This document shows positions 3,321-16,104 of a stretch of DNA of 20,924 nt, one piece after another; position 1 is the first letter of the stretch, and each line of letters opens with the position of its first letter. This stretch comes from a virus. The notes beneath the pieces are model-generated. The model made no database searches. It was given only the letters and a program-made list of their open reading frames with translations, and had not been told where the DNA came from. The translations under genes were made by a program, and so were the position numbers. The stretch is taken from positions 1 through 20,924 of IMG/VR virus record IMGVR_UViG_3300009502_000237; one strand, given 5' to 3'.

Positions 3321-6300
3321 TTATATATCCACAGCTCTTCTATCTTGTATTACTTCATACAAGTCTGGGTTTCTGTAATAATCTTGCCATTTTTCTAACG
3401 TGTCAATTTCAACATAGCAATCTTGTATTTTTGACAAAAAGAAATTAGATATAATATCATCAAGTAATATAACTTCGATATTAATAATGTTATTGTTTTT
3501 ATCTTTTACAATGCTTTCGATAACGCATTCGATATCTCCACCATTTGTTTGATGAGGCAAATTAATATTTATATGTTGGGCAACGTGCCAATCTCTCGCC
3601 CACGAATCATCTGAAGCAACATATACATACGGGATATTAAAAGATACCCTACGCAACCCCATGCGGTTTACCCATTTTGTAATATAGGCAAGCGCATCAG
3701 AATATGTTGTTATCATTTCGCAATCGGTCAAGTCAGAAGGGGCAAGCTCGATCTGTCGGAATCTATTCCAAAGCGCATGGCACGCTTCCCAAACTTCTTG
3801 GCCGTCAGTCCCCTGAAACCCCGGCGTCAATTCTGGTTCCCATCCGATTCCCGCTGTGTGTATCGTTCCGTCTGTTTTCGTGTAGGTGGAATCTGCGCTA
3901 TTTAATACCTGCAAATTCTTATCAAACTTTTGTGATCCTGGGTTATACGAATAATTTATAAGAGGATTTACAAAAACGTCTTGTGATTTAGGCTCCTTCG
4001 TTGCGCCAATATCATCTACAATTGCACTTAGTGAAATAGTGGCAAGTGTCGAAGCAACCCCGATAGTGTTCTTTTTTGTGAATACATCCTCTACGCACTC
4101 ATACCCGTCTTTGTCTTGATATGTGCAAAGTCCGTAACGCTTACAAATGAGTTCTGCGATTTTATCAGTGCCCGCTTTGTCCCTGTCGAAGATCTGAAAT
4201 GCTGGGCGATAGGTATACAATTCAGCGGGAAGGTTGTCGTATGATCCATCCACCGCACCGATTCTTATTTTGATAGAGGGAGAATATTCTTTCCCAAAGT
4301 CAACAGCATCACCATACTCTGAACCGTTCTGCAATCGTTTTACGTGTTCCAATATGGCAACTGGGTTGTCTATAAGATCCGTAGCAACAGCACCGTATCG
4401 AGTTGCAAAAGCAGTGTCATTATAAATGCGACCGCCGAACATTGCATAAATATCTTTTGAAATAGAATAGGATTTTTCACAGATGAGAGCCAGTTCGTAA
4501 AGACGCTTTATTATTGTATGACTATCTATCTGAATTACTGGTGGCGACCCCATGCTAATAGCAACAGGATGCTCGAATCCTTGCAAAAAATACATCTTAT
4601 GAATAGATTTTAAATTTTCTTTTGATTCTATTGGAATTTTGAAATTTTTGTGATATCCAATATCTGTTGACATTTCATTTATTAATAAATTATAATAAAA
4701 ATGCTTATTATTATCATTGTCTGTTCTTGTTAAATAATAAAAATCAGGAAGATTTTTTATTGTTGAAAAACCATCATTTATAGATAAAACAGTATCAGAA
4801 TAATAAACAGTATCTACGCTGCCTATTTTAGATGCGTATTCACTCGATGCTGTTTTTAGGCCAATAAATCTTTTATATAAAATTTTTGAAAAATGCTTAA
4901 TTATTATAGGAGGAGCAAACTCATTAGTTATTGCTGTTTTTGATTTAAAATCAATTCCTAAATAAAACGAATCATAATTAATAAGTATTTTATCTTTTGG
5001 AATATCAAATTCCCATACAGCTATGACCGTTCTAGTTGATAATGATGTAGCGTGCGAATGTACTTTTTGTTCATAATACGTAGAATCATTTCTATCTACA
5101 CAGTCAACAGATAATGATCCAGAATATTCATCTGCCGACAATGTTGATTTCTCACCAAACCAATTAGTATTTGCGATAAGGTTTGTATATGCTCCATTAA
5201 TTTCCTTTACAATATCATCATTAGTATATTTAATTATATTTTCCATTTGGAAAAAATCATACGTCACCAACTGGTTAGGATCATTCTTGAATAGTTTTAA
5301 ATCAATAATAAGTTTATTTTTCAGCGCGTCAACTACACTGGAGTATCCGTATTGCGGTATGAGAGTACAACCTACTTGATCAAGTGATCGTTCTTCGGTT
5401 GTTACTAAGTCAGCTGTAGTAGTAAACTTGCTTGTGTATTTGCCTGTTGAATCGCTATTGTAAACAGCAAGACGCGGATAATCGGTTGCTGCTATTGCGT
5501 CACCGTTCTCATCAATAAACCCCTTGCACGGCCATGTATCAGCTGTAAACTCAAACGGAATATCTACAATCATTACCCATGCGTTATTCTCTGCCGTTGC
5601 ATCGCTACTTACGCAAAGATTTTTTTCAAAGAACGAATCAAGACAAATAATAATTCCAAGTCCACTATAATCAATTACATACCCTTGTCGTATTGTAACC
5701 GACGTATTGGATATTGCATTTGCGGAAACGGTAATTGTGTCGATTGTTTTGTCAAGGACTGTCCAGTCAAATAAATTAGCACTAGCTGAAGCAAATCCGG
5801 CGTTTAATGTCACGCGTGAACCAGTAACTATGTTTGACGTATCGGATACTTCCGTTATTATCGGAGAACCACTTGTTGTTGTTCCGATTATTTGTGCATA
5901 CTTTCCTATCTTTCGGTATACACCTATAAACGAATCGTTTCCATCAGCAATCGAAGCGCCGCCCACTGTTATTTTTATATACTTTTCACTTGGATTAAAT
6001 GCGTTGATAATAGTGGTAAGGGGATCACCGCTTGTCCCTCCAGTTCCAAACTTTAACTTATAGGCAAGATGCGGGGAATTAGTATCCCCAACGGCTACTA
6101 CAGGAAATGTATTCGTTCCCTTTGGGGTCAAATAGACTGTGTCACCCGAAAAATCATTTGTAAATACTGTTTGTTTTGCGGAAACACGATTAAACTTTGC
6201 ATAAGATTTCACTTGTGTTGCAGGATCAACACTATCATTTACATAAAATTTCCCAAACGTCAAAGGAACTATTATTCCGTTTTGATCGTCGAGAGCTTTT

Positions 6301-7220
6301 TTAAAGTTGCCGTTCACTGCATCATTGTTTACTATTACGCCACATTCAGCACGTCTTTTATATTTGTTGTTCGGGCAAGAAAGTGAAAGTATTGTCTCAT
6401 TCCATTCGGGGTCTTGAATACTACCTGTAAATATTATATCCGCGCTTGTCGAATCGTTGTCGGCCTCTGTTCCCCTAAATTCCCAAAGCTCAACAGTAAA
6501 GCCATTCAATACTATTCCTAATTCCTGCAATCGCAAAATGTATTGATTAGTGTTAAGTATCGAAACATTAATTCCATCATATTGAACCGGTGATCCACTT
6601 CTTGACCCATCAAAACTTTGCTTGATAGTCGATATTCCATTTTTAGCAAGTATGCCAGTTGCCCAATCAAGAACAGTTCCAACAAGCAGATTTTCACATA
6701 ACCGTATTTCCGACTTACTCTTATATATTACCGTTTCTGTAACACTTGTCGCAGTTGCGTTTGTACCAAGCTTTATCCAAGTATTGCCAACGTCTATGAC
6801 TGTCCGATCTGTCGAATCTTCCCAACCTGTAGGACATTGTACCAACGTGCCTATACTTATCCCTGTAGTGCTATCCATAGCACAAACGCAAGGCGAACCA
6901 GTTACAGTAGCCAAAAGAGAAAGCCCGCCCATTCCGCTACCGCTCGCATTTGTTGAAACAGTGATCGTATTGATTGTTTTTGTTAAAACAGAAACATATC
7001 CACCATACATAGTTCCATAAACTTTACATCCGATAGGGATGCTGTTTATGTCCCCTGTTGTTACTGTAAAGATAGGCGAACCGTCCGAATATGTCCCACC
7101 AAATGCAAGCGTAGAAGCAGATTTTGTTCCCGAAGAAGAATATAGTCCTAACTCTGTATGTTCTTCGTAAAGATCATCACATATTATTTTAATTGCCTGT
7201 ACTATTTTATCATGACTCAT
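3321..7220 (-). CDS. Large tail hub / tail-tip protein
   Basis: At 1299 aa this is the largest gene here. It overlaps the distal-tail-like gene by ATGA, and it lies where siphoviruses encode the central hub (J or Tal-like) protein. About residues 230-295 (ELWEFRG, IIFTGSIQDPEWNE, LSCPNNKYKRRAECG) resemble the start of hub proteins that describe a shifted surface plus its conversion. The last 150 residues (WARDWHVAQHININLPHQ, then IECVIESIVKD) look like the C-terminal hub beta domain. Three copies of a small beta module (GSP....G..V....KTI.TITVS.NA) occur at about residues 47-93, 104-160 and 448-508. The stretch coding for about residues 650-890 is far more A+T-rich than the rest. There is no obvious peptidoglycan-hydrolase motif. 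The hub role is inferred from position, size and these patterns. Confidence 0.75.
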   Translation of the reverse strand: MSHDKIVQAIKIICDDLYEEHTELGLYSSSGTKSASTLAFGGTYSDGSPIFTVTTGDINSIPIGCKVYGTMYGGYVSVLTKTINTITVSTNASGSGMGGLSLLATVTGSPCVCAMDSTTGISIGTLVQCPTGWEDSTDRTVIDVGNTWIKLGTNATATSVTETVIYKSKSEIRLCENLLVGTVLDWATGILAKNGISTIKQSFDGSRSGSPVQYDGINVSILNTNQYILRLQELGIVLNGFTVELWEFRGTEADNDSTSADIIFTGSIQDPEWNETILSLSCPNNKYKRRAECGVIVNNDAVNGNFKKALDDQNGIIVPLTFGKFYVNDSVDPATQVKSYAKFNRVSAKQTVFTNDFSGDTVYLTPKGTNTFPVVAVGDTNSPHLAYKLKFGTGGTSGDPLTTIINAFNPSEKYIKITVGGASIADGNDSFIGVYRKIGKYAQIIGTTTSGSPIITEVSDTSNIVTGSRVTLNAGFASASANLFDWTVLDKTIDTITVSANAISNTSVTIRQGYVIDYSGLGIIICLDSFFEKNLCVSSDATAENNAWVMIVDIPFEFTADTWPCKGFIDENGDAIAATDYPRLAVYNSDSTGKYTSKFTTTADLVTTEERSLDQVGCTLIPQYGYSSVVDALKNKLIIDLKLFKNDPNQLVTYDFFQMENIIKYTNDDIVKEINGAYTNLIANTNWFGEKSTLSADEYSGSLSVDCVDRNDSTYYEQKVHSHATSLSTRTVIAVWEFDIPKDKILINYDSFYLGIDFKSKTAITNEFAPPIIIKHFSKILYKRFIGLKTASSEYASKIGSVDTVYYSDTVLSINDGFSTIKNLPDFYYLTRTDNDNNKHFYYNLLINEMSTDIGYHKNFKIPIESKENLKSIHKMYFLQGFEHPVAISMGSPPVIQIDSHTIIKRLYELALICEKSYSISKDIYAMFGGRIYNDTAFATRYGAVATDLIDNPVAILEHVKRLQNGSEYGDAVDFGKEYSPSIKIRIGAVDGSYDNLPAELYTYRPAFQIFDRDKAGTDKIAELICKRYGLCTYQDKDGYECVEDVFTKKNTIGVASTLATISLSAIVDDIGATKEPKSQDVFVNPLINYSYNPGSQKFDKNLQVLNSADSTYTKTDGTIHTAGIGWEPELTPGFQGTDGQEVWEACHALWNRFRQIELAPSDLTDCEMITTYSDALAYITKWVNRMGLRRVSFNIPYVYVASDDSWARDWHVAQHININLPHQTNGGDIECVIESIVKDKNNNIINIEVILLDDIISNFFLSKIQDCYVEIDTLEKWQDYYRNPDLYEVIQDRRAVDI

Positions 7221-8086: not shown

Positions 8087-9886
8087 CTATCGTCCCGCCG
8101 TTACCAGATAGTCAACCAACTTTTGTACGCCACGATCACCTGATCGCAATTCCTGATATAAATTTTCCGCTGTAGATTTTGACCCGTTTATTGTCACATT
8201 GAACGTATGACCACTTGTCATACTCTTTGTCGTGCTGTTGTTTATCACTTGTGAACCGCGCGGCAAGTTAATCATTTCCGGCCCGCGCTCTCCGACAAGC
8301 GACATGCCACCAGGAGCGTTGTATGTGCCAAGGGCGAATTGAGTTGATTGTATCGTTGCAATATTAGTTGCCGTTTCTGCCGCCGCCACTACTCCTCCAG
8401 CAATTGCCAGCGCGGCTTTATCGTAGAATGTAACTCCTGTATCCCAACCCGCCTTTACAGCAGTTACAATTGATGCTGCGCCTTCAGCAATAGCTATACC
8501 AGTAAGAATATTCTTTTTTTCTTGAGCTTGCATTTTGGATTGATTTACAGCAAATTTTCCAAGCTGGACAAGTGCGTTAGTTGTTTTATATGATGCTGTC
8601 CACATGCTCTCTTTTATTTTTTTATCTTGATCTGCTTCCCAAATAGATATTCTTACTCTTCCCTCTGCTTGCTCTGTTAGCAATTTAGTTTTATTTACTT
8701 CTATTTGTGCATCTAAATCGGCAGACGTAGCAATTGATTTTAAATAATCTTGATTTTCTTTGTACCTTATTTTATGCATTTTCGTTATATGCTTCATGTA
8801 ATCGTCTTGCTCTGCTTTATATCTCGATTGTCTTTCTATCTCTTCTTTGTCTTTTTTTGGATCTTTAAAATCACTAGAACTATACAAAGATTTATTATTT
8901 TCTGATTCTTTATTATCAATTTTACTTATTGCCGATTCATTCATTTTAATTTGTGATTTTATCGCGTCAGCTTCAGCTTGAGCGATAGCTATACGTTCGC
9001 GCCTCAACGCTCCTGTTTTATCACTCCAAACCGCATACCCATTTGAAGCGTTTTTAATAGCAGAATCGATAGCTATAATTTCATTCTTGTTTGCTGCAAG
9101 CTCCCCTTCTGTTATACTCTTTTTAACGTCATCCCTATCGTCTCCATGCAATGTTTTAAAAAATGCCGCAAGTGCTGTTGTCCCCGCAATTATTGCAGGC
9201 GTAAACGTAACCGAGAACTCCGCCCCTAAAACCTGAGTAGCTTTTTTAAGCCTTGTTTGCGCTTCTTCTGCATCATGCAATCTTCGGATTGTTTCCTTGC
9301 TAAGCAGCAACCCATACTTGTCAACTTCTTCGTATAGCCCTTGTATTTCTTCTTTGCCTTTTCCGGCAATCCCCATTACTTCATTCATGCCTTTGCCAAA
9401 TAACTTATTGGCAATTGCAGCGCGTTCTGTCGTGTTAGGTATTTCGGAAAGCTTTAAAAGCGTATCTTTAAATATATCGCCAACTTCTCGCATCCCGCCG
9501 TTTTGATCTTTTACTGATATGCCAAGCACCTTAAATGCCTTGTTATTATCATAGGCTTTTACAGCCATGTCTTTCAATGCTTTTTGTAAATTCTCGACAG
9601 AGGATCCTGACATTTTTGCGACATAGTCAAGTTTTTGAACCGATTCTACGCCCAACCCTGTACGGTTTGCCATGTCAGTTACGGTTGCGCCGTATTCAAC
9701 ACCAGCCTGAACAAAATCCTTGATTTTGTCAACAGCAAAAAGACCAGCAAAAGCTCCGGCCACTTTCGTTATAGTGCTTGATACACCTTCTATTTCTCTC
9801 CCGAATTGCTTGACTCCAGTTTCAACACCTGTCAACCGTTTTGAGAAATCATCAACCAGAGTTAATACAACTTTTAAATCACTCAT
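8087..9886 (-). CDS. Tail tape measure protein
   Basis: A 599-aa protein with long helical, Lys/Glu/Ala-rich stretches (about residues 240-460), hydrophobic segments near 40-52 (KVAGAFAGLFAV) and 470-510 (ILTGIAIAEGAASIV and AALAIAGGVVAAA), and the C-terminal signature GGMSLVGERGPEMI with a following RGSQVI, very common in tape measures. It sets tail length and is ejected ahead of DNA. Its start overlaps the tail-chaperone extension by ATGA, the standard position. By the rule of roughly 0.15 nm per residue, 599 aa would give a tail of about 90 nm, shorter than lambda's. That length is an estimate from family behaviour and not read from sequence. Confidence 0.9.
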   Translation of the reverse strand: MSDLKVVLTLVDDFSKRLTGVETGVKQFGREIEGVSSTITKVAGAFAGLFAVDKIKDFVQAGVEYGATVTDMANRTGLGVESVQKLDYVAKMSGSSVENLQKALKDMAVKAYDNNKAFKVLGISVKDQNGGMREVGDIFKDTLLKLSEIPNTTERAAIANKLFGKGMNEVMGIAGKGKEEIQGLYEEVDKYGLLLSKETIRRLHDAEEAQTRLKKATQVLGAEFSVTFTPAIIAGTTALAAFFKTLHGDDRDDVKKSITEGELAANKNEIIAIDSAIKNASNGYAVWSDKTGALRRERIAIAQAEADAIKSQIKMNESAISKIDNKESENNKSLYSSSDFKDPKKDKEEIERQSRYKAEQDDYMKHITKMHKIRYKENQDYLKSIATSADLDAQIEVNKTKLLTEQAEGRVRISIWEADQDKKIKESMWTASYKTTNALVQLGKFAVNQSKMQAQEKKNILTGIAIAEGAASIVTAVKAGWDTGVTFYDKAALAIAGGVVAAAETATNIATIQSTQFALGTYNAPGGMSLVGERGPEMINLPRGSQVINNSTTKSMTSGHTFNVTINGSKSTAENLYQELRSGDRGVQKLVDYLVTAGR

Positions 9887-10278
9887 TTTTTATTCTCTTC
9901 CTGTTGCTTTTTGATCTGGTTGTATAACTTTTCCCAAAGCCCGAACACTTGTAAAAGTTTCTTCTGTTGCTTTATTCTGCTTTGTCCGTTTGGGTAAATA
10001 TGATGTTGAATGTAAGAATAAAAATGAGGTAGCCAAAACGATACTTCCGGCGTTATTATAGATCGGGGACACCGTTTCAGATAGATTTTGTTTTTCCCTT
10101 TGCAATATTCGCATTTTTTATTCTCTCCATCGCAAATAGGACATTTAAACTCTATCTGAACCCGCCGAGTCGGTCTCACGCATCCTTTGCTTTTTTTATC
10201 TTTACCAGTGCAACCGAGACAATTATACTCAGCCGCCATGTTGGTATCAAAAAAGCAAATCCATGCAGCCGATACTAT
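9883..10278 (-). CDS. Tail-assembly chaperone extension (T-like), made by -1 frameshift
   Basis: This frame is open without a stop from the slip site at 10278 to 9883 and would add about 131 residues to the upstream chaperone, giving a fusion of about 251 aa. A free-standing start at ATG 10239 is possible (118 aa), but nothing like a Shine-Dalgarno precedes it, which favours expression by frameshifting. Counted from that ATG, Cys at 7, 10, 20, 33, 36, 43, 46 and 57 form CxxC pairs in a DnaJ-like zinc-binding pattern (FKCPICDGENKKCEYCKGK). The C-terminus is helical and basic. In lambda, G and GT chaperones hold tail tube protein on the tape measure, and this gene sits between the same two partners. 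Its stop overlaps the tape-measure start by ATGA. Confidence 0.8.
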   Translation of the reverse strand: MVSAAWICFFDTNMAAEYNCLGCTGKDKKSKGCVRPTRRVQIEFKCPICDGENKKCEYCKGKNKIYLKRCPRSIITPEVSFWLPHFYSYIQHHIYPNGQSRIKQQKKLLQVFGLWEKLYNQIKKQQEENKK

Positions 10279-10637
10279 TTTTTTAGGTCATCGCCCGATA
10301 TAAAATTCCCGCTTTTCCAGAAGCCCAATATATCAAGCCGAAGCGGATACGGTAATTTTTCCGCGCTTGATCCGGCTGTAAATTCCGGTATCATTACGCC
10401 TTCGGGTGCTTTCCAGCCGCAAAGAATAATATTCAAATGCCCACTTACCCACTTGCGCAATTCAATCGGGTTTTCCTCGAAAAGTTTGTTACGTTCTTCT
10501 CTTATTGTCGGATACGCCTTTTCATATTCTATCAATGCAATGTCAACCTCGTCTGTAGGCTGCTTTAATAGATACTTTATTCCGGTGTCCTTATCAGTAT
10601 ACGCTATAGGATCGTCTCCGAAAGGGATAAAAGCCAT
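10275..10637 (-). CDS. Tail-assembly chaperone (G-like)
   Basis: A 120-aa protein directly after the major tail tube gene (1 bp gap) and before the tape measure, the standard position of the G-type tail assembly chaperone. The N-terminal half is a compact mixed domain (IKYLLKQPTDEVDIALIEYEKAY), followed by helical and acidic segments. The last codons read CTA AAA AAA TAG, so the stop directly follows an A_AAA_AAA heptamer, and the -1 frame then runs without a stop into the zinc-finger frame. Most ribosomes would stop here and make G alone; a fraction would make GT. GGGG lies about 8 bases before the ATG at 10637. Family assignment rests on context and the frameshift design more than on residue motifs. 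Confidence 0.8.
   Translation of the reverse strand: MAFIPFGDDPIAYTDKDTGIKYLLKQPTDEVDIALIEYEKAYPTIREERNKLFEENPIELRKWVSGHLNIILCGWKAPEGVMIPEFTAGSSAEKLPYPLRLDILGFWKSGNFISGDDLKK
10278..10284 (-). promoter_or_regulatory. Programmed -1 frameshift slippery heptamer A_AAA_AAA
   Basis: On the minus strand the zero frame reads CTA AAA AAA TAG. Slipping back one base gives ATA GTA TCG, in phase with the downstream zinc-finger frame (codon starts at 10278, 10275, ... 10239) and with no stop between. GTATC (10275-10271) and GATAC (10248-10244) could pair, with two extra G-U pairs, but this stem begins only 2 bases after the heptamer and may not be the stimulator. Confidence 0.8.
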
Positions 10638-10638
10638 G

Positions 10639-11622
10639 TTATACCCCGATTCCTATTGTAAAGTCATTTCTGTTCAATTGACCCTTAATATCAAACGCCG
10701 CAATATTGTTTTCGTCGCTCGATTTGCGTTCTGTAATCTGCATATAATTTCCGAGCAACTGTATATCCTTCGGGCTTGTTCCCCATTGGATTTTAAACGC
10801 GCCCTCGCTCTGATTACGCAACGCAACAAGCGGATCCACTGTTGCCTTTGTCATGGCATAGCACTTGATAGACACTTTTATTTTTCTGTCCGTAACATCA
10901 CTATACCCCGCGCCATTTTGTTCGCTCGGATCTTCACGGTTTACAGTTGTTTGAGATCCATCAACTTCAAATGACTTTATCTTGTAAAGAGAGCTGCCTA
11001 TCACAAGGATTGTTGCACCCTTGAGAGAATACGGAGTTTCCCGCGCCTTGGCGCTTGATATATCTGGCTGCGTTGCATCAGTCTCGCTGTGAAAAGCCCC
11101 GTCCATATCAAACGTAATTACCGGAACTTTATTTGCTTCACCAGCGATCTTAAATGTTCCAGCTAAGTTATAAAATCGTTTTTTCAGAGCACCGCTTGTC
11201 TCTTGAGACCCTGCATAATGATCCAATACTCCACTAGTAGAAAAAACTGAAGCCGGGGCTAAAGAAAATTGTGATGGAGCAGTCCCGCCGGGAGCCGTAG
11301 AAGTTAATGCAAAATTACAGGAGCCATACAGCACCTTTCCCCATTGTGGCAATACTTGGTTATTTCCCGAAGCAGGATTCATTGCGAATTGCAAAGATAC
11401 TTTTCCTGTTTCTTTACCGGGGACTGCTGAATATTGATCAAATCCCCCTGCAACTATTTCTATCGGCTCAATAGAAACATTCAAATCAGCATTTGACCCT
11501 TTCAACACTTGCGCAATATCACTTGCCGCCAAAGTTAATGCTCCTGCTGTAGAATAATCCATGCCCGGAGTAGTTTGTGGCTGATAAAGAAATAGCTCCC
11601 TTAACTTGTGCATTGCTGACAT
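10639..11622 (-). CDS. Major tail tube protein
   Basis: A 327-aa protein rich in beta strands, Thr, Ser and Gly, with no membrane segment. Features typical of siphovirus tail tube subunits include an N-terminal helix-loop region (MSAMHKLRELFLYQP), a long middle beta region (ETGKVSLQFAMNP, FYNLAGTFKIAGE, VPVITFDMDG) and a C-terminal segment (TERKSSDENNIAAFDIKGQL). It has the canonical place just before the G/GT chaperones and tape measure, and a strong Shine-Dalgarno (AAGGAGA, 6 bases from the ATG), fitting a high-copy structural protein. It would polymerise around the tape measure to form the tail tube. It is longer than the lambda V protein (about 246 aa), so an added surface domain is possible. 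Confidence 0.8.
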   Translation of the reverse strand: MSAMHKLRELFLYQPQTTPGMDYSTAGALTLAASDIAQVLKGSNADLNVSIEPIEIVAGGFDQYSAVPGKETGKVSLQFAMNPASGNNQVLPQWGKVLYGSCNFALTSTAPGGTAPSQFSLAPASVFSTSGVLDHYAGSQETSGALKKRFYNLAGTFKIAGEANKVPVITFDMDGAFHSETDATQPDISSAKARETPYSLKGATILVIGSSLYKIKSFEVDGSQTTVNREDPSEQNGAGYSDVTDRKIKVSIKCYAMTKATVDPLVALRNQSEGAFKIQWGTSPKDIQLLGNYMQITERKSSDENNIAAFDIKGQLNRNDFTIGIGV

Positions 11623-13980: not shown

Positions 13981-16104
13981 TTAAGCACCGGCATTCTTTC
14001 CGATACCGCGCCAATCGGAAGCTCCCACAGCAAATATTGACATAAGATCCCAGACGATTCCGCGAGCCTGTCCGATTTCGGATGGTGCCGAACGAATCTG
14101 AGGGGCTTCTTCACCTGCGAGAGTCGCAAGTACAAGATGCTGCGCAACATTCGAATCCGCTGCGAAATACCATGCAGTTGTTGACACTTCGTCAATGTAC
14201 GGCGTGGTAATAAGCTCGATACCCATAGATGCGAACGGATTGACAATTGCAGGGTTTGTCTGGCTGTTGCTCCCGGTAGAGTTTGTATATGCTGCGGGTG
14301 AACCGAGAACCTGCTGCCACTGCGACCACTGGGTTTCACCGGTGATGATATACTTGATAGGAGCTTGCGTATACTGTGCCTTGCTCACGCCATCTGGTGC
14401 AGGCAGTTTGATCGAGCGCAACAGTTTTCGGGCTTCGGCAAGCGACGGCGTAGAAGGTGCCGCACTTGATCCGATGTTCGCATGTGTCGAATGAAACATT
14501 GGCTGTGAATCTTCGTTCATTGTCGGGCCAACAACTCCGGAGCCTGTTCCTTCGGAATTTCCGCGAATGAGGAAGTTATACGTTGCGCGATCTTTCTTGC
14601 GTGCAACCGCTCCACCCATGGCGGAAGGGATGCGAGAGAATGCCGATTTGTCGTCGTTGACAATCGCCTCAAATGAAATCGAAAATGCTTTCATGTATTT
14701 GTAAAGCGTGATCAGTTCGCCCTTATCGGCGAACCGGCCCCATTCAGGATTTTTGCCTTCAGGAACCCAGTCGATATCCGAGAAATTGGACATGTTGACA
14801 AGTTTATTCTGTTTGAAATCGTTGAGAGATTGACGACCGATCCAACGATCATACGTTGTCTGAATCTCGTCGTAACCCTTCATCAAAAACTTGTTTGCAG
14901 CAGCGGCAAGAATATACGCAAAGTCGCCGGAAGCCTGAGCAATCGCGCCGCGTGAACCAAAATTGCCTCCCATTATTTCGCGCGCAATTTCGTTTGCGGA
15001 CATTGTGAGAACGCCCTTTGCGCCGGAACGCTCGAGACAAACTTTTGCAAGTGCCTGGAGCCCGTCAACGCCGCGAATCTCTGAGCCTTCAACCTTTTTT
15101 GCGCTTTCGGAATCGATGCGGCTTGCTCCGATTGCGTTCCGAATACATATCGCAGTTGTCGCAACTTCACGGAATTTATCGGCTTCATCTGCTGTGATTG
15201 CAATGTTGCCGCCCTGTTCCCCGGGGTTCTTTGCAGCGACCATACGTTTCTGCGCTTCGACGATAAGTTTGCGCTGTACGTCAAGAGCGGGTGTCAATTT
15301 CGAGAGATCTTCTCTCACGAAATCAATTTCGATTCCAAGCTCACGGCAAGAATCTTCGATCTGATTTCTGCGCGAACCTTCAGCCTCAAGAGCTTCCTTG
15401 ACTGCTGCTTTCCGAATGTTGTCCACGTCAACTGTATTTGCAGTGGGCGCGGGTGTCTGACCTTCTACGTTGTCGGCCATGAGAGCCTCTCTTTCTTTGA
15501 TGTTAGAGTTACGGTCACGGAACTTGCTTCTCGCATCCGCGCCAATTGGAGTCGTAGATATTTCAAAAGGTTTCCAAATTGTTCGAACAGCCATTCTCAT
15601 TTTGCTGTTTGTGTTATCGTACTCTTTTCCGTTCACTGTTCCACGCTGTCCCGGCTCAATCCATGATGTTGCATCCGAGAATGTCTGATACCCGACTGAT
15701 AAATCAGTCAAGTGGCCCTCACGCGCAAGTGTCGCAATATCATCGGCAAGCGAAGAGAAATAAACGTCTGTCTCACTTGTCCCATTGTTCATGTTTTCCA
15801 TATTGCGGCATGAACCGCGAACAGAGCAAGACCCTTCGCCGCGACTATGATTGTCAAGTAATGGCACTTGTCTATTTTCTGGCAACTGCATACCATCCAT
15901 ACAAAGAACTTCACGTATGAGATCGTCTTGGCTCCAATCGTATACAGTTACAGGCTCTTCACTTGAGAAAATAGCGCGGCATTTGCGTTGCGTAACGCTT
16001 CCCTTCTCGTCTTTCTCTTCCACATAAGAACCTGGAGCAAAAGAACGATATAAACCGCCATCAATTAAATTTTCCTGCTTGTTTTCATTATTGTTCTTCG
16101 GCAT
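13981..16104 (-). CDS. Prohead protease - scaffold - major capsid fusion protein
   Basis: A 707-aa protein with two recognisable parts in one frame. Residues 1 to about 200 look like an S78 (HK97-type) prohead protease: PLLDNHSRGEG with His86, LTDLSVGYQ with Ser136, and WKPFEIST with Glu181 followed by PIGADARSKF, the order His, Ser, Glu expected for the active site. Residues about 209-310 are helical and charged, like a scaffold (delta) domain. Residues about 310-707 are the capsid subunit (KDRATYNFLIRG, APIKYIITGETQWSQW, TTPYIDEVSTTAWYFAAD). The gene overlaps the portal by 17 bp and starts after AAGGAAG. It is clearly richer in G+C than its neighbours. An in-frame ATG at 15480 with good ribosome binding could yield capsid alone. 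Confidence 0.85.
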   Translation of the reverse strand: MPKNNNENKQENLIDGGLYRSFAPGSYVEEKDEKGSVTQRKCRAIFSSEEPVTVYDWSQDDLIREVLCMDGMQLPENRQVPLLDNHSRGEGSCSVRGSCRNMENMNNGTSETDVYFSSLADDIATLAREGHLTDLSVGYQTFSDATSWIEPGQRGTVNGKEYDNTNSKMRMAVRTIWKPFEISTTPIGADARSKFRDRNSNIKEREALMADNVEGQTPAPTANTVDVDNIRKAAVKEALEAEGSRRNQIEDSCRELGIEIDFVREDLSKLTPALDVQRKLIVEAQKRMVAAKNPGEQGGNIAITADEADKFREVATTAICIRNAIGASRIDSESAKKVEGSEIRGVDGLQALAKVCLERSGAKGVLTMSANEIAREIMGGNFGSRGAIAQASGDFAYILAAAANKFLMKGYDEIQTTYDRWIGRQSLNDFKQNKLVNMSNFSDIDWVPEGKNPEWGRFADKGELITLYKYMKAFSISFEAIVNDDKSAFSRIPSAMGGAVARKKDRATYNFLIRGNSEGTGSGVVGPTMNEDSQPMFHSTHANIGSSAAPSTPSLAEARKLLRSIKLPAPDGVSKAQYTQAPIKYIITGETQWSQWQQVLGSPAAYTNSTGSNSQTNPAIVNPFASMGIELITTPYIDEVSTTAWYFAADSNVAQHLVLATLAGEEAPQIRSAPSEIGQARGIVWDLMSIFAVGASDWRGIGKNAGA
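15478..15491 (-). promoter_or_regulatory. Internal ribosome-binding site and start inside the protease-capsid gene
   Basis: GAGAGG at 15491-15486 stands 5 bases before an in-frame ATG (15480-15478, Met209). It lies exactly between the protease part and the scaffold part. Starting here would make a 499-aa scaffold-capsid protein without protease, giving many capsid subunits per protease, as nested genes do in lambda (C/Nu3). Confidence 0.55.

Follow-up and report, generated by a model that had tools for sequence, protein, structure and literature searches.

A very probable -1 frameshift in a phage tail assembly chaperone gene pair with an unusually cysteine-rich extension

Two overlapping open reading frames, G and T, very probably encode a tail assembly chaperone pair that is made in two lengths by a -1 frameshift at the heptamer A_AAA_AAA. 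They lie on the minus strand of a complete IMG/VR record of 20,924 bases (IMGVR_UViG_3300009502_000237), all of which was analyzed and is referred to here as the window. A programmed -1 frameshift similar to that of lambda G/GT had been proposed in the first-pass annotation of this DNA. The proposal is supported by the position of the genes, the phase of the heptamer, the missing ribosome-binding site of T and, above all, by a distant relative (L026), in which the same architecture is found with another heptamer, no ordinary start codon for an intact T and a strong hairpin. Judged from the sequence of this uncultured phage, the frameshift is of the ordinary G/GT type; what is unusual is T, which is richer in cysteine than the T proteins that we compared. 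The relevant features are as follows.

Gene order, minus strand: terminase GpA, lambda-type portal, fused head protein, several connector genes.
13981-16104, minus strand: fused head protein with a Phage_capsid_4 C-terminal part (domain match).
Gene order, minus strand, continued: probable major tail protein, G, T, tape measure protein, further tail genes.
10639..11622, minus strand: probable major tail protein, 327 aa (position; PHROG 290 tail protein, 9.6e-6; L026 homolog at the equivalent place, 2.2e-32).
10275..10637, minus strand: G open reading frame, 120 aa, zero-frame product (ORF call; Shine-Dalgarno duplex, -6.3 kcal/mol).
10284-10278, minus strand: slippery heptamer A_AAA_AAA, in the right phase for a -1 shift and adjoining the G stop codon TAG (10277-10275).
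10230..10271, minus strand: possible 3' stimulatory hairpin, beginning 6 nt past the heptamer (-11.6 kcal/mol).
10237..10239, minus strand: internal ATG of the T frame, without a Shine-Dalgarno sequence and within the 3' arm of the possible hairpin.
10278-9883, minus strand: T part, 131 aa, as continued in the -1 frame from the slip site (L026:3941-4348 is homologous, phmmer 2.9e-19).
10069..10221, minus strand: cysteine-rich domain of T, C20-x2-C23...C33...C46-x2-C49-x6-C56-x2-C59...C70, numbered from the first residue after the slip (eight cysteines conserved in L026).
8087..9886, minus strand: tape measure protein, 599 aa (PHROG tape-measure families, best 5.9e-24).

The gene order on the minus strand of the window is that expected for a long-tailed phage. 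The overlapping G and T sit between the genes for the major tail protein and the tape measure protein, and the ATG of the latter, at 9886, overlaps the stop codon of T (TGA, 9885-9883). This position had been claimed to match that of lambda G/GT, and the claim is borne out, as lambda G and T likewise lie between the major tail protein and tape-measure genes. Among long-tailed phages, a split chaperone arrangement in front of the tape measure gene is widely conserved (PMC5009743). Besides its PHROG matches, the tape measure protein has a match to Pfam PhageMin_Tail that stays under the cutoff (1.1e-6). The capsid protein of the window is distantly related to that of the Rhodobacter phage RcOceanus, and a tail protein of 1299 aa, encoded at 3321-7220, has no Pfam or PHROG match.

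The 3' end of G reads GAT GAC CTA AAA AAA TAG; the heptamer touches the stop codon, as the first-pass annotation had stated. After a TGA at 10290-10288, the -1 frame is open from 10287 and ends at the TGA at 9885-9883, which agrees with the earlier statement that it runs on without a stop (131 codons, 10278-9883), and the predicted G-T fusion has 120 + 131 = 251 aa. A productive -1 shift is possible across only about 3-4 zero-frame codons, and the heptamer falls within them. It should be noted that the heptamer by itself is modest, not compelling, evidence, because 45 of the 6,753 codons of the window genes (0.67%) carry a classical in-phase X_XXY_YYZ site (Y = A or T), which corresponds to a chance of approximately 2-3% for such a heptamer in G alone. 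Across all 23 genes there are 283 usable positions, at which about 1.9 in-phase heptamers are expected and one, the G site, was found. It is the comparison with a relative that decides.

This comparison is with two IMG/VR records of nearly identical sequence, 3300046006_002605 (L026) and 3300044987_002646 (L027), which together count as one independent relative and were reached via the conserved tape measure motif ERGPEMIN. No independent relative was obtained when G, T and the major tail protein were themselves used as queries against IMG/VR, searches of phage collections with the same three proteins gave no match, and neither did alignment-based scans of genome contigs. The tail modules of the window and L026 are homologous: T, the major tail protein and several connector genes have L026 homologs in matching order, the tail protein that follows the tape measure (2.9e-29) keeps its place, and the record also has a homologous capsid protein. 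The T proteins are 35% identical and share all eight cysteines. In L026, G ends GTA AAA AAC TAA, so that a slippery heptamer, A_AAA_AAC, adjoins the stop codon, and T is again in the -1 frame. The likeness of the ten residues after the slip in the two phages is suggestive, not significant (permutation p of about 0.09). With regard to conservation of the heptamer in relatives, the slip site and its position are kept in one relative, whereas the sequence is A_AAA_AAC and not A_AAA_AAA. We consider the comparison with L026 to be the strongest, and the decisive, sequence evidence for the predicted frameshift. L003 and L004 have only head genes in common with the window; they have a different kind of tail module, apparently a contractile one.

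The two phages also differ in several respects, one of which is the RNA downstream of the slip site. The possible hairpin of the window is not significant alone (z = -1.0). The hairpin of L026 is stronger; it also begins 6 nt past the heptamer, and folding of 88 nt gives -26.8 kcal/mol (z = -4.0), with none of 200 shuffles as stable. The spacing is equal in the two phages, and the CGGCTG 5' arm is common to both. An Rfam search gave no match. Stimulatory RNA elements are frequent, not universal, in G/GT-type frameshifts. Another difference concerns the capsid protein, to which a ClpP-type protease is fused in L026/L027. The N-terminal parts of the capsid proteins differ accordingly: that in the record of L026 (L031) consists of a ClpP-type protease and a zinc ribbon, and that of the window has no protease by Pfam, although its relatives are annotated as fusions of major capsid protein and protease.

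The third difference is that L026/L027 have no ordinary start codon early in T, and it bears on the possibility that T is a separate protein, translated by re-initiation at the ATG at 10239, about 36 bases past termination at 10275, with no fusion formed. Termination-reinitiation across short gaps is known, and the T frame of the window has this ATG just ahead of the cysteine-rich part. However, the ATG had been described as lacking a ribosome-binding site, and our calculation bears this out: it has no Shine-Dalgarno sequence, its duplex energy of +0.6 kcal/mol is the worst of the 23 genes, most of which are at -3 to -9, and it lies inside the possible stem. In L026, moreover, the T frame opens at 3899, and the stretch from there to 4106, which extends beyond six of the eight conserved cysteines, contains no ATG, GTG or TTG; therefore, the whole domain would need a shift from G (or a very unusual start). 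We regard re-initiation as very unlikely.

Transcriptional slippage, in which RNA polymerase would slip on the seven A's so that some mRNAs gain or lose one A, is less probable still. The window does have a run of seven A's, a length near the lower limit for this process, yet the corresponding AAAAAAC of L026 has six, which is too short for efficient transcriptional slippage but makes a classical ribosomal slip site, and in both phages the phase of the heptamer is that of ribosomal X_XXY_YYZ slippage. A homopolymer error in sequencing or assembly, with one open reading frame (or two unconnected ones) in reality, is the least probable explanation because the split recurs in the independent L026 at the equivalent place and there involves another heptamer. 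Errors of this kind do typically arise in such A runs, and L002, the sole near-identical record, stops short of the G/T region, but the arrangement ahead of the tape measure gene is, as noted above, widely conserved. All three alternatives were judged unlikely.

The cysteine-rich character of T, pointed out in the first-pass annotation, was confirmed in both phages, with a correction: instead of four CxxC-type pairs, the conserved set of eight comprises three CxxC pairs and two single cysteines (C33 and C70). The DnaJ-like pattern that had been suggested is present as a resemblance and does not amount to a family match. CxxCxG motifs and eight cysteines are common to T and the DnaJ/Hsp40 zinc-finger domain (PF00684, DnaJ_CXXCXGXG); however, T scores 13.8 bits (E = 0.073) and misses the gathering cutoff of 32.7, and PF00684 has four CxxCxGxG motifs, whereas only two of the three pairs of T are followed by xG. 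Judging by these cysteines, the domain probably binds zinc, and the eight of them would fit two four-cysteine zinc sites.

Neither G nor T is covered by a family in Pfam, PHROG or NCBIfam. G has no significant sequence match to known chaperone families, and hhalign comparisons of G with those of Loki, IME_AB3 and RcOceanus were not significant. AlphaFold models of T and G (pLDDT of about 46) were too poor for structure comparison, and no meaningful match came from searching the PDB by sequence.

Several known systems can be compared with the window. The lambda G/GT tail assembly chaperones, reportedly the subject of Xu, Hendrix and Duda 2004, are alike in (i) their place between the major tail protein and the tape measure protein, (ii) the -1 frame, (iii) a slip near the 3' end of G and (iv) a T without start signals of its own. 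The lambda slip site is G_GGA_AAG and lies some codons ahead of the stop, whereas A_AAA_AAA in the window touches it; in addition, the T of the window is cysteine-rich, and neither G nor T of the window has detectable sequence similarity to known families. A closer parallel for the slip site is found in the Acinetobacter phages Loki and IME_AB3, where A_AAA_AAC adjoins the stop of the upstream open reading frame and T is in the -1 frame (PMC5313236). For Loki, AAAAAAC is described as touching the stop of gp12 (PMC5313236), and we confirmed A_AAA_AAC at the stop in the Loki sequence. In contrast to the window, Loki T has no cysteine, and Loki G belongs to PHROG 313, outside which the G of the window falls.

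With respect to the T domain, the Rhodobacter phage RcOceanus group, the Nostoc phage Nsp-JY21 and the Synechococcus phage Sc-Yong805-1 are of interest. Their T is also in the -1 frame, and about 15 residues after the slip it has CxxC...CxxCPR, followed by a longer C-terminal part; these T proteins have four cysteines in a short knuckle, compared to eight in the window. RcOceanus is annotated with a joined tail assembly chaperone. The heptamer of Nsp-JY21 is A_AAA_AAA, identical to that of the window. Comparison of the window T to profiles of the four-cysteine T proteins was not significant (hhalign E = 0.098); common descent is no more than a possibility. In the Nsp-JY21 record (L060), positions 26038-26735 hold two open reading frames annotated as separate tail assembly chaperones, with an in-phase A_AAA_AAA and a -1 continuation that contains CxxC...CxxC; this pair is probably an unrecognized frameshifted fusion.

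The slip sequence is all-A, as the first-pass annotation had emphasized, although this is not unusual, since the heptamer is shared by Nsp-JY21 and by the contigs of another phage group. In that group (L007-L023, L038, L040-L043 and L046), which shares only tape measure similarity with the window, A_AAA_AAA is found in the overlap of open reading frames before the tape measure gene in 23 of 23 IMG/VR contigs. It is located 27-39 nt upstream of the stop of the open reading frame preceding the tape measure gene, and the -1 frame T is well conserved and has no CxxC. These 23 loci are a good independent set to study all-A slip sites.

The preferred reading, a -1 frameshift at A_AAA_AAA, can be represented as follows. 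Most ribosomes would terminate at the TAG (10275) and yield G, of 120 aa. When Lys-tRNAs occupy AAA AAA, a minority would slip one base back at A_AAA_AAA before the stop is read; we infer both the shift and this efficiency. The slipped ribosomes would continue in the -1 frame and yield G-T (251 aa), whose C-terminal domain is rich in cysteine and probably binds zinc. Chaperones of the G/GT type are characterized by an infrequent shift that sets the ratio of G to GT, and neither protein is part of the virion. In lambda, the tape measure protein acquires a coat of G, the major tail protein is recruited by a few G-T molecules, and both are gone before the tail is completed (PMC5009743). By analogy, the same roles would be expected in the window: coating of the tape measure protein by G and recruitment of the major tail protein by the T part.

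The slip mechanism and the all-A and A_AAA_AAC sites are already known in phages; the cysteine-rich extension is less usual, and a search of the open literature gave no description of cysteine-rich T domains. We can only tentatively suggest, and consider it rather doubtful, that the T domain constitutes a separate, zinc-binding type of recruitment module in tail chaperones, with eight- and four-cysteine forms, which would replace the usual cysteine-poor T and make recruitment of the major tail protein zinc-dependent. The accepted picture of tail assembly is unchanged by these results. They show that a slip site touching the stop codon is recognizable from sequence even where the chaperones have no database match, and they point to cysteine-rich T domains as a variant that recurs among frameshifted tail chaperones.
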